Shown here: piece after piece, positions 21,723-30,475 of the stretch
How the letters are laid out: each line of letters begins with the position of its first letter
How positions within the stretch are numbered: the first letter of the stretch is position 1
Source: Subtercola boreus
Lineage (GTDB): Bacteria; Actinomycetota; Actinomycetes; Actinomycetales; Microbacteriaceae
Assembly (NCBI RefSeq): GCF_003399635.1
Contig: NZ_NBXB01000034.1
Coordinates: 1 to 64,000, forward strand
Length of the DNA stretch: 64,000 bases
Direction of reading: 5' to 3'
Notes under the pieces: generated by a model
The model's input: the letters and a program-made list of their open reading frames with translations, nothing else
Told to the model about the DNA's origin: nothing
Databases searched by the model: none
Position numbers and translations under genes: made by a program

Positions 21723-23537
21723 CTAGACGAGCGACTGCCGCCAGGAGGCGTGCAGCTGGGCGAACCGCCCCGTTCCGCCGATCAGGTCGGCCGGGGTACC
21801 GTCTTCGATGATCACACCATGCTCCATCACGAGCACCCGGTCGGCGATCGCCACGGTCGACAGCCGGTGGGCGATGATGATGGCCGTGCGGTCGGCGAGC
21901 AGGGTCTGCAGGGCATCCTGCACCTGCCGTTCGCTCGGGATGTCGAGGGACGCCGTCGCCTCGTCGAGGATGAGCACTGCGGGGTCGGCGAGGAAGGCCC
22001 GCGCGAACGACACCAGTTGGCGCTGGCCGGCGGAGACCCGCCCGCCCCGCTTGTTCACGTCGGTGTCGTAACCGTCGGGGAGGCTGTCGATGAAGGCGTG
22101 GGCACCCACGGCCTTCGCAGCCGCGACGATCTCCTCGCGGGAGGCGCCCGGTTTTCCGATCGCGATGTTGTCGGCGACGGTGCCCGAGAAGAGGTAGGCC
22201 TCCTGCGTCACCATCACGATCGCGCGCCGCAGGTCTTTCGGATGGAGCTTCCGGAGGTCGATGCCGTCGAGCGTGACCTGCCCCGTGGTCGGGTCGTAGA
22301 ACCGTGAGATGAGTTTCGCGAGCGTCGACTTGCCTGCGCCGGTGGAGCCGACGAGGGCGATGGTCTGCCCGGCGGGCACGGCGAGGCTGAACTCGGGGAG
22401 CACGACCCGCCCGTTCTGGTAGGAGAACTCCACGTCGTCGAACGAAATGCCGCCCTTCGCCGTCCAGAGGTCGATCGGTTTCACCGGATCGGGCACGCTC
22501 AGTTCTTCTTCGAGCACACCGGAGATCTTCTCGAGCGCTGCCGCCGCCGACTGGTAGGAGTTGTAGAACATCGCCATCTCCTCCATCGGGTCGAAGAAGC
22601 GCCGCGTGTAGAGCACCGCAGCGAGCAGCACACCGATGGCGACCTGGCCATCGATCACCCGGAACGCACCGACGAGCAGCACCACCGCGACCGTGACATT
22701 GCCGATCAGCACAAGCCCCGGATCGAAGATGCCGAACAGGCGGATCACCTTGGCATTCGACTCCCGGTACTGCTCGACCAGCCCGCTGAACTCGGTCGAG
22801 TTGCTCTTCTCCGTGCGGAACGCCTTGACGGCCCGGACGCCCGTCATGGTCTCGACGAACTTCACGATCAGCTTCGCCGAAGCCGTCCGCGTGGTGCGGA
22901 AAAGCTTCTGCGAGCGCAGCTGGAACCAGCGGGTCAGGACGACCAGCGGCACCAGCGAGACCACCAGGATGAACCCGCTCGCCACATCGAGCGAGAACAG
23001 CGCGATGCCGATGAAGAACATGTAGAGCAGCCCCTGCACGAGCTGGTTGATGCCCGAGTCGAGCAGTTCCCGGATCGAGTCGAGGTCACTGGTCTGCCGA
23101 GAGATGATGCGCCCCGAGGTGTAGGTCTCGTGGAACTCGAGGCTCAGCCGCTGGGTCTGCAGGAAGACCCGCTTGCGGAGATCGAGCAGGATCGCCTGCG
23201 AGATCCGTGCGGTGAGCACGGTGAACCAGGAGATGAGAACCGCACCGACGACCCCGGTGACCAGGTAGATCACGCCCACCGAGGCGATCGGGATCCAGTC
23301 GTGGTTCACCAGCGCGGGCAACCCGATGTCGATCCCGTACGCGATCAGCGCCGGGCCGGCCACCTGGGCGGCGGTGCTGATGATCACCACGATGAGCCCG
23401 ATCACGAGCTTCGACTTCTCGGGGCGCAGCAGCGAACCGAGCAGGGCAGTGGATCGCCTGCGGATCTGCCGGCTCTCGGCACGGGTGAAGTCGTTGCGCT
23501 CCTCACCCTCGACACCGGTCACGGTCGTCTCGCTCAT
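21723..23537 (-). CDS. ABC exporter half-transporter (TMD-NBD), subunit with degenerate signature motif
   Basis: A 604-aa export ABC protein with six N-terminal helices and a C-terminal ATPase. Walker [10 protein letters not shown] is at about 395, Walker [12 protein letters not shown] with the catalytic Glu at about 522, and the signature reads VSAGQRQL instead of LSGGQ at about 499. Together with the partner gene (23534-25303), whose Walker B lacks the Glu, this gives one canonical and one degenerate ATP site. It overlaps the partner's stop by four bases (ATGA). The substrate is unknown; lipid or drug export is typical of the class. Confidence 0.92.
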
Positions 23538-25303
23538 GCGGTCACCTCCTCATCGTCGAAACTCGAGATCACATATCTGTAGTGGTCGTTGCCGGCCAGC
23601 AGCTCGGCGTGCGTGCCGACGGCGGTCACACGCCCGTTCTGCAGCAGCGCCACCCGGTCTGCGAGCGCAACCGTCGACGGCCTGTGTGCCACGATCAGCG
23701 CCGTTGTCGAGGCGAGCACCGTGCGAAGCGCGGCCTCGACGAGTGCCTCGGTGTCGACATCGAGGGCGGAGAGCGGATCATCCAGAACCAGTACCCGGGG
23801 CTTGGCCGCGACCGCCCGCGCGAGCGCGAGACGCTGGCGCTGGCCGCCCGACAGGCTGAGACCCTCCTCGCCGACGCGGGTCGCGAGGCCGTCGGGCAGG
23901 TCGTGGACGAACCCCGCCTGTGCGATCGAGAGGGCCTCGGCAACCTCCTCGTCGCTGGCCTCTGGCCGACCGAGCACCACGTTCTCCCGCACAGAGGCGC
24001 TGAACAGGGTCGCGTCTTCGAAGGCCATGGCGATCTCGGTGCGCACGGTGTCCCGCGGCAGGTCGCGGATGTCGATGCCGTCGAGAAGCACCCGCCCACC
24101 GGTCACGTCGTAGAGCCGGGTGGTGAGGGAAGTGAGGGTGCTCTTGCCCGAGCCGGTCAGCCCGACAAGCGCCATGGTCTCCCCCGGCTCGATCACGAGG
24201 TCGATACCGTCGAGCAGGTCGGCGTGGGTGAGCGGCGCATCCTGGTAGCGGAAGTGCACGTCATCGAAACTCAGCTGCCCACGGGGTGACCGGATGCTCT
24301 GCGGAGCGGCGGGGTCGACGATGGTGTTCTCCGAGTCGAGCACGTCGAAGAACCGCGTCGTGGCGGTTCGGGCATCGAACGTCATGGCAAGGAAGTAGCC
24401 CATCGACTCCACCGGGAACAGCAGCACCGTCGCGGTGGCGAAGAAGGCCACGAGGTCACCGACGGTGGCCTGCCCCTCTGAGGCGAGCCAGACCCCGACG
24501 ACGAGGCACACCGCGAACGCGACATCCGGAACCAGCAACAGCCACAACCAGATGTTGGCGACGGCCTTGGCCTTCTCGATCTCGGTGCCCCGGAGCTTCT
24601 CGGCCTGGCGTTCGAACTTCTTCAGCGCGAACGGGCCGCGCCCGAAGGCCTTGAGCACGCGGATGCCGTGCACCGACTCCTCGACGCTGGTTGCGAGGTC
24701 GCCGACCTGGTCCTGGCTCCGACGGGCGGCGTCGGAGTACTTGCCCTCGAAGACGTAGCTGTAGGCCAGAACGGGAATGGAGGCAACCGCGAAGATCAGG
24801 CCCAGCACCCAGTTGAGGCTGATCAGGATGGCGAAACCGATGAAGATCGTCACGACATTGACCACCATGATCACCACGCCGAACGAGAGCCAGCGGCGGA
24901 TCAGGTTGAGGTCGCTGACCGCACGCGAGAGCAGTTGCCCGCTCGGCCAGCGGTCGTGGAACTCCACCGGCAGCTCCTGCAGGTGATCGTAGAGGCTGTT
25001 GCGCATGCGCGCCTCCACGTGGGTTCCCGGGGTGAGCACCAGCACGCGGCGGAGGGCGATCAGCAGAGCCTCGAAGACTCCGAGGGCCAGGATGACCAAC
25101 ACGACGGGCCAGATCTGGGACGAGTCGCCGTCGGCGAGCGGGCCGTCGATCAGCACCTGCAGCACCTGCGGGATCGCCAGCGACACGAGGCTCGCCAGCA
25201 AGGAGACTCCGATGGCCGTGTAGATGCGCGGCATCGCGGGTTTCGCATAGACGTACAGTCGGGCGAGCGTCTGCAACGTCGACTGCTCTTCTGGGGCAGG
25301 CAT
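23534..25303 (-). CDS. ABC exporter half-transporter (TMD-NBD), subunit with Asp in place of catalytic Glu
   Basis: A 589-aa export ABC protein. Walker [10 protein letters not shown] is at about 381 and the signature [11 protein letters not shown] at about 481 is canonical. Walker B reads [11 protein letters not shown] (about 504), with Asp where hydrolysis needs Glu. It is the first gene of the two-gene operon, and the ATG at 25303 is followed by [20 protein letters not shown] before helix 1. With the 604-aa partner it should form a heterodimer of the TM287/288 or TmrAB kind. Confidence 0.92.
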
Positions 25304-25360: not shown

Positions 25361-26596
25361 TCACCTCACCCGCACCGACAGGCAGGTCACGCAGCCCTCG
25401 AGCTTCTCGTACTCGCTGATGTCGACCGAGATCACCCGGTAGCCGAGGTTCTCGATCAGCTGGGCCGACTCAGGGGCCGATGCCGCCATCAGCACCGTGT
25501 CGTCGCTGAGCTTCACCACGTGGGCGCCGCCCTCTTCGGGCATGCTCAGGAACCGGTCGAAGATCTGGGGATCATCCACCAGCGGCAGGTAGCCGATCAC
25601 CGTGCCGTCGGGCAGCGCCGTGACGGCACTCTTCAGGTGCAGCACCTTCGTCAGCGGCACGGCCACGACCGTGTAGCCGAGCGCGGAGACGATGTGACGC
25701 AGCTGGTGGATGCCCTCGGCATTCGTTCGGCCGCTCCGCCCGACGTAGACGGTCGTTCCGACTTTCAGTACATCGCCGCCGTCGAGTGTTCCGGGCTGGG
25801 CGATGTGCGCGACCTTCAGTCCGAGCTCCCGCACGGTCACCTCGACGGCCTCCGTCTCGGCGACGCGGTGCTCGCTGCCCGGGCTGGTGATCACCGCGAC
25901 ATCGCCGAAGATGATCACGGCGTCTTCGACGAAGACCGAGTCGGCGAGGTCGTCGGCCTGGTCGACCTCGATCGTCGTCCAGCCGGCCTTCTCGAGCACG
26001 TTGACGTACGACTCCCACTGTTCGTCGGCCAGCTCGAGGTCGACGGGGCTCTTCTCGATGTGGGTCACGTGTCCGTCGGCGAGAGTCGCCGCAGGTCTCC
26101 GGATGATCGCCACCCGTCGCTCGGAGACGGCACCCCGGGCATCCGGAGCACCGAGCACGACACCCGCGTAGACCCGTCGGCCCACCGTGGCGGAGGCGAG
26201 GATGACGGCCAGCACGAAGACCAGATTGATGCCGACGAGGGTGCCGACCAGATAGGAGAGAACATCGCCGTCGAGACCCTGGCCCGCGACGAGGAGGGGA
26301 AGGGCCGTGCCGACCAGGGCGCCGAACAGGGCGGCGACCAGCCCGCTGACCAGCGAGAGGTACCAGCTGCCATAGCCGCCCACAGCCGCGAGGATGGCGA
26401 CGAACACGAGCGTGAAGAGCGTCTGGGGCAGAAAGAAAGCGTTCGCGTCGCCGAAGTACTGGGGTTTGAAGCCCTGCACCATGAAGAACGCGAGCAGGAC
26501 GACGAGATGGGCGATCGCCGCGACGACCACGGCCGTGAGGGCCGAGGCGAGAAGCGGACGGGCGCCGAACAGCGGCGGGGTGGGGTCGAGAGGCAT
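25361..26596 (-). CDS. Dimethylarginine dimethylaminohydrolase (DDAH) fused to an N-terminal four-helix membrane domain
   Basis: About 411 residues. The first 150 form four hydrophobic helices (about 16-40, 56-73, 78-104, 115-138). Residues 160-411 are a complete amidinotransferase-fold DDAH: RRPAATLADG, SVFVEDAVIIFGDVAVITSPGSEHR, GTLDGGDVLKVG, VLHLKSAVTALPDGT (catalytic His), and a terminal EGCVTCLSV holding the catalytic Cys. DDAH converts methylated arginines to citrulline plus methylamine. The start is taken as ATG 26596 after an AGGG; GTG 26623 is possible. A membrane anchor is unusual for DDAH, which is normally soluble and about 255 residues. The helices could instead be a transport-like or sensing module. 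Confidence 0.82.
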   Translation of the reverse strand: MPLDPTPPLFGARPLLASALTAVVVAAIAHLVVLLAFFMVQGFKPQYFGDANAFFLPQTLFTLVFVAILAAVGGYGSWYLSLVSGLVAALFGALVGTALPLLVAGQGLDGDVLSYLVGTLVGINLVFVLAVILASATVGRRVYAGVVLGAPDARGAVSERRVAIIRRPAATLADGHVTHIEKSPVDLELADEQWESYVNVLEKAGWTTIEVDQADDLADSVFVEDAVIIFGDVAVITSPGSEHRVAETEAVEVTVRELGLKVAHIAQPGTLDGGDVLKVGTTVYVGRSGRTNAEGIHQLRHIVSALGYTVVAVPLTKVLHLKSAVTALPDGTVIGYLPLVDDPQIFDRFLSMPEEGGAHVVKLSDDTVLMAASAPESAQLIENLGYRVISVDISEYEKLEGCVTCLSVRVR

Positions 26597-26710
26597 GCCT
26601 CCGACCCTAGCGGCTCCCGCCACGGCCGGGCATCAGCCGCAATTCAGGCAGGAGCGGCCGCCGAGGTGGACCCGTCGATGGCTGCCCGCCCTGCCTGAAA
26701 TACTGCCGCC

Positions 26711-26785
26711 CGCCGCCGGCCGCCCGCTGCCCGCTGCCCGCCGCGCGCCGCCGGCCGCCCGCTGCCGGCCGCCGCCGGCCGCCCG
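26711..26785. repeat. GC-only tandem-like repeats between purH and the DDAH gene
   Basis: This stretch is almost purely G and C. The 21-mer that begins CGCCGCCGGCCGCCCG occurs identically at 26711-26731 and 26746-26766. Its first 16 bases occur again at 26770-26785, separated by CCCGCTG-like units. It lies directly after the purH stop on the minus strand, where it could form strong structure. No ORF is convincing here. Confidence 0.8.
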
Positions 26786-26807
26786 CCGCCCGCTGCCGGC
26801 TGCCGGC

Positions 26808-28451
26808 TCAGTGGAAGAAGTGCCGCTCCCCGGTGAAGTACATCGTGACGCCCGCGTTCTGCGCGGCCTCGATGACCTCGGAGTCGCGCACGGAGCCGCC
26901 CGGCTGCACGACGGCGCGCACCCCGGCGTCGAGCAGCACCTGCAGGCCGTCGGCGAAGGGGAAGAACGCGTCACTCGCGGCGACGGAGCCGGCTGCACGC
27001 GTGCCCGCCCGGCTCACCGCGAGATGGCAGGAGTCGACCCGGTTGACCTGTCCCATGCCGACACCGACGGAGGCGCCGTTCTGCGCCAACAGGATCGCGT
27101 TGGACTTGACCGACCGGCAGGCCTTCCATGCGAAGACCAGGTCGCTCAGGGTGTCGGCATCGGCTGGCTCGCCGGAGACGAGCTGCCAGGCGTCGGTGGT
27201 GTAGTCGACGAAACCGTCGGAGGTCTGCATCAGCACACCCCCGCTGATCTGCTTCAGCTCCACAGCGGGCCGCGCGTATTCGGCTGGCAGACGGAGGATG
27301 CGGAGGTTCTTCTTCGTCTGGAGGAGCTTCAGGGCATCCGGTTCGAAATCCGGTGCGACCAGCACCTCGGTGAAGATCTCCTGCACGGTCTCGGCCATGC
27401 CGAGCGTCACCGTGCGGTTGGCCGCGATGACCCCGCCGAACGCCGAGACCGGGTCGCACTCGTGCGCTCGGAGGTGCGCAGAAGCGATCGGATCGAGCGC
27501 TGTGGACGAGGAGACTGCTATTCCACAGGGGTTCGCGTGCTTGATGATGGCGACGGCCGGCTCGGCGAAATCCCAGGCTGCCCGAACCGCAGCGTCAGCG
27601 TCGACGAAGTTGTTGTACGACATCTCCTTGCCGTTCAACTGCTCGGCCTGGGCGATTCCGTGGCCGTGCGGCTCGAGGTAGAGCGCCGCCCGCTGGTGCG
27701 AGTTCTCCCCGTAGCGGAGGGTGTGGGCGAGCGAGACGCTCCGCTCGACGAGCTTCGGAAAGCCGCTCTCGGGCAGCGGGGCGGCCGGGTCGAACACGCC
27801 ATCCGACGGCAGCGCACTGGCACCGAGCTGCTCAGCGAACCACGTCGCCACTCCGGTGTCGTAGGCCGCGGTGTGGGCGAAGGCTGTGGCCGCGAGGCGT
27901 CGGCGCGTTTCGAGCGAGGTGCCGCCCGAGGTGAGAGCCTCAACGATCTGCGGGTAGGTGTTCGGCGACACGGCGATGGCCACATTGGCGTGGTTCTTGG
28001 CCGATGCCCGCACCAGCGCGGGGCCGCCGATGTCGATCTGTTCGATGACGTCGTCGGGAGCTGCACCGCTCGCGACCGTCTCGCTGAAGGGGTAGAGGTT
28101 CACGACCACCAGCTGGAACGCCTGGATCTCGAGCTCCTGCAGCTGCGCGATGTGCGACTCAAGCCGAAGGTCGGCGAGGATCCCGGCATGCACCGAAGGG
28201 TGCAGCGTCTTGACCCGGCCGTCGAGCGACTCGGGGAATCCGGTGATCGAGGAGACCTCGGTGACGGCGAACCCCGCTGCAGCGATGGTCTTCGCCGTCG
28301 AACCGGTCGAGACGATCTCGACGCCTGCCGCACTGAGCGCCCCGGCGAATTCGACGAGGCCCGACTTGTCGCTCACCGAGACGAGCGCGCGCCTGATCTC
28401 GATCTGGTCGCGGTGGTGGAAATCGGCGGGGTCGTGGCGTGGGCCGCTCAT
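26808..28451 (-). CDS. purH: Bifunctional AICAR formyltransferase / IMP cyclohydrolase
   Basis: A 547-aa enzyme performing the last two steps of de novo IMP synthesis. The N-terminal MGS-like cyclohydrolase domain has [17 protein letters not shown] and [13 protein letters not shown]. The AICAR formyltransferase part has [25 protein letters not shown] (catalytic Lys-His) and [13 protein letters not shown] 28451 overlaps the purN stop (ATGA). The full-length product ends TGERHFFH, typical for the family. ZMP, its substrate, is the metabolite linked to the riboswitch at glyA. Confidence 0.97.
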
Positions 28452-29071: not shown

Positions 29072-30475
29072 CTAACGCAGCGGCGCGCTGCCCGATGGTG
29101 ATGCGGGCGGCGCGGAGCTCGCGGAGCTGCTGGCCGTGGGGGTGCTGGTGGCCTTGCCGTTGTTGGTGCTGGTGCCGCGGGTGTCGCTGCCGCGAGCGCT
29201 GCCGTTCGTCCGTCGCCCCGGAAGCTCGACGCCGCTGGCCAGCAGCCCCACCGTGGCCGAGACGCCGAACACGATGAACGACCAGAGCCAGACCGCACCG
29301 GGATCCGGGCCGACTACAGCGAGGCGCCCGGGGCCCGCTGCGCCGCCCGACCAGAGGGCGAGCACGGCGAGGATGCTCGCCGCGACGATCCCGATGCCGA
29401 AACCTGTGCCGATCATCCGTGCCGCCGAGGTTCCGGCACTGGCACCGGCCTTGGCACCGGCACCGGCACCGTGAGGCTGCCCACCGGCGCCCGCACCGGG
29501 GGCAACGAGCCGCGGCCGAAGCGCCACAGCGATGACGAACCCGATCGCGACCGGCAGCACGAGAACGGCGTAGCCGAGCGGTGACGACTGCGGCAGCGCT
29601 CCGAACAGCGGAAGCGACGGCAGGAGGCCCACGTCAGTGCCGAGCGGAGAGATCGATGACCCGGCTCCCAGCGCGAAACCGGGACCGACGAACCAGCTGG
29701 CCGCCCACACCACGGCGTTCGGCAGCAGGGCGAGCTGGCCGAGCGTGAGCGCGGCTCCCCCGCCGATACCCGATCCGAGGGATTCGTAGAGCGAGATCAC
29801 GCTCGAGTAGTGCACCAGCAGCCCCGCGGTCACCGCCAGCGCACCGACGGCGACCATCGCAGCGACCACGATCGCTCCGCCGCGGAGGGCAACGGCCACG
29901 AACGGCCGGGCCGCCGCGGCCATCCGCTCCCACTGCCGCAGGAACCACCCCGCGAGAGGACTCTGCTGCCGGGTGAGGCTCGCCGCAGCGCCGATGACCA
30001 TGCCGAGCCCGTAGACCGCCGGCACGAGGAGCACGGCCTGCCAGAACGATGGCACGGCCCCCGGGGTCTCTGCACTCAGCCAGGCGAGCGCGCCCAACAC
30101 TCCGACCGTGGCGACGCCGACGACCAGCCCGAGTACAGGATGCGGGGAGAAGCCGAGCCGGAGCCCGGAACGACGGCCGAGGAAGGCGGTCAGCACGGCG
30201 AACCCGAGTGGGGCGATACCCACCACGAACGGTGTCGCCGCGCCGTCGAGGGCGAGCCGGGCCGCGAGCGCAGGGTCGAGGGCGAGCTGCAGGTCGACAC
30301 CGTTGCCGAGCATCCAGAGGTCTGCGGATGCTCGCCAGAACACGGTCCAGTCGATGCTGAGGTCGAACTGGGTCGCCCAGAGGATCGTGAGCATCACGAG
30401 CGGGATTCCGATGCCGATTGCGACGGCGATCAGCGCATCGAGCGCGGCGAGGAGTGCGGTGGTGGGGCGGTTCAT
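29072..30475 (-). CDS. DUF6350 (PerM-like) integral membrane protein
   Basis: A 467-aa polytopic membrane protein with roughly ten helices and a disordered Gly/Ser/Ala-rich C-terminal tail (about 425-467). An Ala/Gly-rich loop with GAGAGAKAGASAGTSA lies near residue 350. Its place between sucD and purN is the conserved position of DUF6350, represented by PerM in Mycobacterium tuberculosis, a protein linked to cell division and persistence. The ATG at 30475 follows the preceding stop by a single base (TGATATG), so it is translationally coupled. The biochemical role is unknown. Confidence 0.82.
   Translation of the reverse strand: MNRPTTALLAALDALIAVAIGIGIPLVMLTILWATQFDLSIDWTVFWRASADLWMLGNGVDLQLALDPALAARLALDGAATPFVVGIAPLGFAVLTAFLGRRSGLRLGFSPHPVLGLVVGVATVGVLGALAWLSAETPGAVPSFWQAVLLVPAVYGLGMVIGAAASLTRQQSPLAGWFLRQWERMAAAARPFVAVALRGGAIVVAAMVAVGALAVTAGLLVHYSSVISLYESLGSGIGGGAALTLGQLALLPNAVVWAASWFVGPGFALGAGSSISPLGTDVGLLPSLPLFGALPQSSPLGYAVLVLPVAIGFVIAVALRPRLVAPGAGAGGQPHGAGAGAKAGASAGTSAARMIGTGFGIGIVAASILAVLALWSGGAAGPGRLAVVGPDPGAVWLWSFIVFGVSATVGLLASGVELPGRRTNGSARGSDTRGTSTNNGKATSTPTASSSASSAPPASPSGSAPLR

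Follow-up and report, generated by a model that had tools for sequence, protein, structure and literature searches.

In the 64,000-nucleotide stretch of Subtercola boreus DNA analyzed here (the window), one gene joins a DDAH domain to a set of hydrophobic helices. The question that it raises is whether the fusion is genuine and, if so, what the membrane part does for the enzyme. The reading we favor, at a probability of about 0.62, is that of an inner-membrane-tethered and catalytically competent DDAH (TM-DDAH), probably with a second, non-catalytic role. This second role is the bold part of the reading, and a plain anchored enzyme is its plain alternative; the confidences expressed below for the competing explanations are not mutually exclusive.

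Features of the TM-DDAH locus, in window coordinates (helix boundaries by eye)
Feature	Coordinates	Strand	Basis
TM-DDAH gene, 411 aa, ATG at 26596	25361..26596	-	ORF list, NF045660 match, relative comparison
N-terminal membrane domain, residues 1-150, family-specific	26147..26596	-	hydrophobicity, profile searches
TM helix 1, residues about 14-38	26483..26557	-	hydrophobicity, charges
TM helix 2, residues about 57-74	26375..26428	-	hydrophobicity, charges
TM helix 3, residues about 81-103	26288..26356	-	hydrophobicity, charges
TM helix 4, residues about 114-136	26189..26257	-	hydrophobicity, charges
DDAH domain, residues 163-410	25367..26110	-	NF045660 402.8 bits; PDB 3rhy/1h70
Asp272, aligns with acid of DDAH triad (GTLDGGD)	25781..25783	-	PDB and family alignment
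His320, catalytic His (LHLKSAV)	25637..25639	-	PDB and family alignment
Cys405, catalytic nucleophile (GCVTC)	25382..25384	-	PDB and family alignment
purH, upstream neighbor	26808..28451	-	neighbor comparison
ABC transporter half (membrane and ATPase), downstream neighbor	23534..25303	-	neighbor comparison
Second ABC transporter half	21723..23537	-	overlaps first half by 4 bases

The initial annotation had recognized the marks of a DDAH in the C-terminal 250 or so residues and four hydrophobic helices in the first 150, and both parts of this description hold. The C-terminal 248 residues score 402.8 bits against the model of the Streptomyces-type dimethylargininase (NF045660), above the curated cut-off of 340. 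Cys405, His320 and Asp272 are in place, together with F222, E224, D225, R244, D275 and R290. The best matches among solved structures are to the DDAH of Pseudomonas aeruginosa (3rhy, E = 4.5e-41; 1h70, E = 1.1e-39), which, like 3bpb, aligns over residues 164-409. Cys405 aligns with a Ser of 1h70 and His320 with a Gly of 3bpb; we take these entries to be the C249S and H162G mutants, so that the mutated sites match Cys405 and His320. Thus, the Cys and His sites of the two proteins coincide, whereas the acid of the triad is Glu in the Pseudomonas enzyme and Asp in the window protein.

The crystallized Pseudomonas chains comprise 254-255 aa and hold no counterpart of the membrane domain. The NF045660 model likewise covers the DDAH part only (249 positions), whereas the window protein carries a membrane domain of some 150 residues in front of it. 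With 411 aa and four helices, it departs from the free single-domain architecture of about 250-285 aa; the DDAH filing applies to the domain and not to the whole protein, architecture being no formal criterion of NF045660. For arginine deiminase, the outcome is split: the domain exceeds the cut-off of the broad superfamily model PF02274 (24.8 vs 22.8) but stays below that of TIGR01078. A search of the same genome with PF19420 gave no match (0/1), which is uninformative since the model suits eukaryotic DDAH. The genome contains a second DDAH, of the Mtb type (NF045659; 366.1 bits, cut-off 300), at G000:C4:3578-4309 (L250 3578-4309). It belongs to the same superfamily and shares about 31% identity with the window domain but, unlike TM-DDAH, it is devoid of a membrane domain and overlaps an aminotransferase ORF (L250 4285-5541) that is read as rocD. 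Because of this arrangement, catabolism of this compound class may be covered elsewhere in the genome.

Helices and DDAH domain lie in one 411-aa open reading frame, and the fusion proposed initially is real. The ATG at 26596 is common to the window gene and its nearest relative (L002). A GTG at 26623 represents an alternative upstream start that would add 9 aa to the window protein; L002 has no start codon at this site. Among the named relatives, S. boreus P27444 ranks first, with 97% identity. A different matter is an internal start that would drop the helices, which the initial annotation had named as a way in which the fusion could fail. An in-frame GTG codon is indeed found at residue 161, immediately in front of the DDAH domain, and translation from there would yield a soluble DDAH. 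We regard such an annotation artefact as highly improbable: ten live pairs show purifying selection on the helices (dN/dS 0.06-0.19), the charges alternate regularly between inside and outside, and the joined frame recurs in 125 genomes. A sequencing join, also envisaged at the outset, is excluded by the identical joined frame in 125 genomes read. That the fusion is no artefact follows as well from the strong matches to the membrane part in 220 of 398 Microbacteriaceae genomes and from dN/dS values well below 1 in both halves.

The membrane part consists of four Kyte-Doolittle hydrophobic segments (at about 14-136), which are lacking in the soluble relatives. Averaged over 95 fused rows, the number of K and R residues alternates between higher values for the N-tail (1.06, counted over residues 10-13 only), loop 2 (1.27) and the C-tail (1.85) and lower ones for loop 1 (0.26) and loop 3 (0.15). 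Read with the positive-inside rule, this pattern suggests that both termini, hence the enzyme domain, are cytoplasmic; the GRRVY sequence after helix 4 would then lie on the same side. As for the descent of this domain, a Pfam scan of 15 members yielded no convincing match but scattered weak ones, the best being DUF2754 (E = 0.0041, one member) and DUF5518 (two members). The domain of the window protein matched no NCBIfam model at E <= 1, and a profile search found no PDB sequence at E <= 10. Two candidates were rejected. The ECF S-component was matched by L016 alone (E = 0.0046, 16.6 bits vs a cut-off of 180). The four-helix family DUF6121, considered because one member matched it at 0.91, reached an hhalign probability of 0.4% over 26 columns (A5, only 3 sequences); stand-alone DUF6121 genes occur in 5 of 24 genomes of relatives.

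The fusion is common within Microbacteriaceae and not peculiar to this genome. The full-length profile (A1) finds matches in 269 of 398 genomes of the family and in 61 of 85 genera (E <= 1e-3, anchorless DDAHs included). The remaining 129 genomes have no A1 match, and the family is thus not uniform. The profile of the membrane part (A2) matches 234 of the 398 genomes at E <= 0.1; with 14 matches of E 7.5e-5 or weaker set aside, 220 strong ones are left (E 2.6e-10 or better). Among the A2 matches listed, the open frames measure at least 398 aa, except in G266 (345 aa, split by a frameshift). At this locus (L217, G266:C1:856033-857239), the gene occupies two frames, with the split near model position 260, and is excluded from the counts. 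At 1e-10, the sample of the order (297 genomes) contains 43 genomes with a match, and all 8 places that reach the membrane part belong to the window's family; in the phylum sample (55 of 396 genomes at 1e-20), the same applies to all 3. Outside Microbacteriaceae, these samples gave matches to the DDAH part only; within them, the fusion is confined to one actinobacterial family, a point that the initial annotation had proposed to check. The best match of the membrane profile outside the family has E = 4.1e-4 and partial coverage. No description of a membrane-fused DDAH was found in the literature searched, in which few subscription journals and preprints are represented. The plain annotation "dimethylargininase" given to these genes hides a membrane protein.

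The genomic setting distinguishes the fused genes as well. Of 95 fused loci, 87 have a co-directional purH upstream and 68 a co-directional ABC transporter half downstream; neither gene adjoins the DDAH gene in any of 70 named loci, nearly all of which are from outside the family and all of which are anchorless. Among 22 in-family rows counted anchorless (two of them cut by contig ends), purH is present in 5 and the ABC gene in 8. The ABC neighbor is absent from g20 and g17, two lineages with a dead enzyme (see below), and also from 17 live fused loci, some of which are short-flanked.

Most fused copies retain the machinery of an enzyme. Ten sites were checked (222, 224, 225, 244, 272, 275, 290, 320, 323 and 405), with Asp or Glu allowed at 272 and Ser or Thr at 323. 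Among 95 fused rows, 84 are complete, one is altered (G118: E224Q, S323A) and 10 are dead; 30 more fused genes, taken from lower-scoring matches, comprise 29 complete ones and one dead (G402). In total, 113 of 125 fused genes read are complete, 1 is altered and 11 are dead, and His320 and Cys405 are both kept in 114. The dead set consists of the 9 g20 genomes read, without exception, of G027 (g17) and of G018 (g8), and its members retain frame and anchor. Glu224, His320 and Cys405 occur in all of the 95 rows counted anchorless, with Thr290 in 13 and Asp323 in one. The resulting 11/125 vs 0/95 gives no rate, because both sets are biased: the 70 named rows were taken as best matches of a live query, and some genera of the fused set were chosen for low scores.

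The dead domains differ in their degree of divergence. Against the NF045660 cut-off of 340, G018 scores 237.5, G030 194.6 and G027, whose DDAH domain is degenerate, 61.1 bits; Cys and His are replaced in these copies, while the dead row G321 has kept its His and lost Cys and Glu. Within g20, the replacements are conserved. All eight aligned rows share G273P, G295A, an Asp or Glu at position 323 and a changed Glu224; C405R is found in seven (the eighth has a gap), and Arg290 is changed in seven; D225, D275, N292 and R300 are kept. As part of the two-function proposal considered below, Arg405 and the acid at 323 of g20 might pair in the former guanidinium pocket, as a salt bridge internal to the protein.

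On a tree of 87 rows of the neighboring purH, three changes are required to explain the dead state, and well supported branches force each of them; such counts on this tree do not tell gain from loss and are compatible with gene transfer between lineages. G018 is sister to the live G123 of the same genus g8 (100*), and G027 is placed beside the live genera g2, g3 and g54. The DDAH tree joins the dead rows. Because we suspect long-branch pull in this grouping, the count relies on the purH tree.

The dN/dS estimates are plain Nei-Gojobori values, obtained without a control gene or GC-bias correction, and dS may be GC-biased. In ten live pairs, they amount to 0.061-0.192 for the membrane part and to 0.013-0.087 for the DDAH part; in four dead pairs, all from g20, the respective ranges are 0.131-0.481 and 0.126-0.298. 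The dead copies are less constrained than the live ones, yet not free. A weaker constraint is, however, also expected under slow decay.

The anchor, in turn, is missing in places. DDAH copies without it occupy the same locus in G075, G117, G308, G074 and G131, so it is dispensable in these genomes. Five changes are needed for the anchorless state on the purH tree, where the sister of G117 is the fused G273 and that of G075 the fused G201 (each 99*). A stand-alone membrane gene beside the soluble DDAH was sought in 12 such loci, none of which matched the membrane profile. The gaps examined in G117 and G308 hold one gene on the opposite strand and one gene of 406 aa, presumably an FAD oxidoreductase and a mechanosensitive channel, respectively. 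As to a single origin of the fusion, a first DDAH tree scattered the soluble rows among the fused ones. With the long rows removed, a clade of fused rows and suspected losers was not rejected (p-AU 0.935), and neither was a clade of fused rows alone (p-AU 0.571). The purH-linked anchorless DDAHs of G131 (L166/L245) and G074 (L230) group with soluble forms outside the family, while their purH falls among the fused genera; their anchorless state may reflect loss or replacement.

What is more challenging is to explain what the anchored protein does. On our preferred reading, the four helices, with both ends inside as judged from the charges, would fix the DDAH domain on the cytoplasmic side of the membrane. 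There, as the family suggests, Cys405, His320 and Asp272 probably serve to release citrulline and an amine by hydrolysis from methylated arginine or from a closely related guanidine compound. The anchor probably keeps the enzyme next to a partner in the membrane, which may be a transporter, and the joined protein probably also acts in a way that is independent of catalysis. We consider this second role probable because fused copies lost their catalytic residues in three places of the purH tree with the domains still in frame and with dN/dS below 1, the latter in one genus. The plain alternative is possible, if rather unlikely: the helices would do no more than hold DDAH in place at the membrane, the protein would serve catalysis alone, and the dead copies would be relics in the course of being lost. 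This view accounts well for the 114 of 125 fused copies that keep His320 and Cys405 (113 with all checked sites), for the faster evolution of the dead copies and for the intact active site of anchorless copies at the same locus. Less easily reconciled with relics are the full joined frame in 9 of 9 g20 genomes read, the dN/dS below 0.5 for both parts in four pairs and the conserved g20 replacements (of 8 aligned rows, 7 have C405R and all have G273P). A more specific proposal appears doubtful to us: a two-function protein, in which an enzyme is combined with a ligand-binding or scaffold DDAH fold through which a partner, perhaps a transporter, is controlled, so that the dead lineages would be the second function laid bare.

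The initial annotation had conjectured that methylarginine or a related guanidine compound might be delivered through the membrane or sensed at it. In a membrane sensor or receptor, a guanidine ligand bound to the DDAH fold would trigger a signal to the helices or to a partner, hydrolysis being secondary or serving to end the signal. Catalysis was lost with both domains retained in three places of the purH tree, and among the membrane-profile matches listed this part is tied to the DDAH domain, as a sensor would have it. We nevertheless judge a sensor distinctly unlikely: the protein lacks an output domain, the majority of copies have a complete catalytic set, and the dead copies also change binding residues (Arg290 in 7 of 8 g20 rows, Glu224 in all). 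The substrate, finally, could be arginine or another guanidine instead of methylarginine. Methylarginine is backed by family scores only, the second, Mtb-type DDAH of this genome overlaps the ORF read as rocD, and a gene of the Glu/Leu/Phe/Val-type dehydrogenases adjoins the DDAH gene in 13 of 95 fused loci (8 genera), as opposed to none of 95 anchorless loci. Yet the arginine deiminase model (TIGR01078; 18.4 vs a cut-off of 489.1) and the arginine dihydrolase model (NF052232; 30 vs 450) are far from being reached, and we think a different substrate unlikely.

Whether a DDAH-fold protein can have a non-enzymatic role is a question also posed by human DDAH2. In this DDAH homologue, another residue stands in place of the catalytic Cys273 of DDAH1, and ADMA is not hydrolyzed (PMC10256801). 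That protein is eukaryotic and is not described there as carrying a membrane domain, whereas the bacterial dead copies sit in a membrane-fused family and presumably arose separately. The three dead branches amount to a natural separation of function, with live fused, dead fused and anchorless forms at one locus. Even single genera combine such states: g8 has live and dead copies, and g63 and g105 have copies with and without the anchor. The question of a role beyond catalysis thereby becomes directly testable in bacteria.

Some further observations concern the surroundings of the gene. The dehydrogenase neighbor (L185, L173, L196, L191, L150-L152 and others) lies upstream of the DDAH gene in seven genera, whereas in g78 it lies downstream. 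A divergent gene near the locus in g8 and g90 resembles an Lrp/AsnC regulator. The gap between purH and TM-DDAH holds a GC-rich imperfect tandem repeat (26703-26805) of period 31 and 3.4 copies, also readable as period 7. A DUF6350 membrane protein is encoded at 29072-30475, by the second gene before purH in the direction of transcription.
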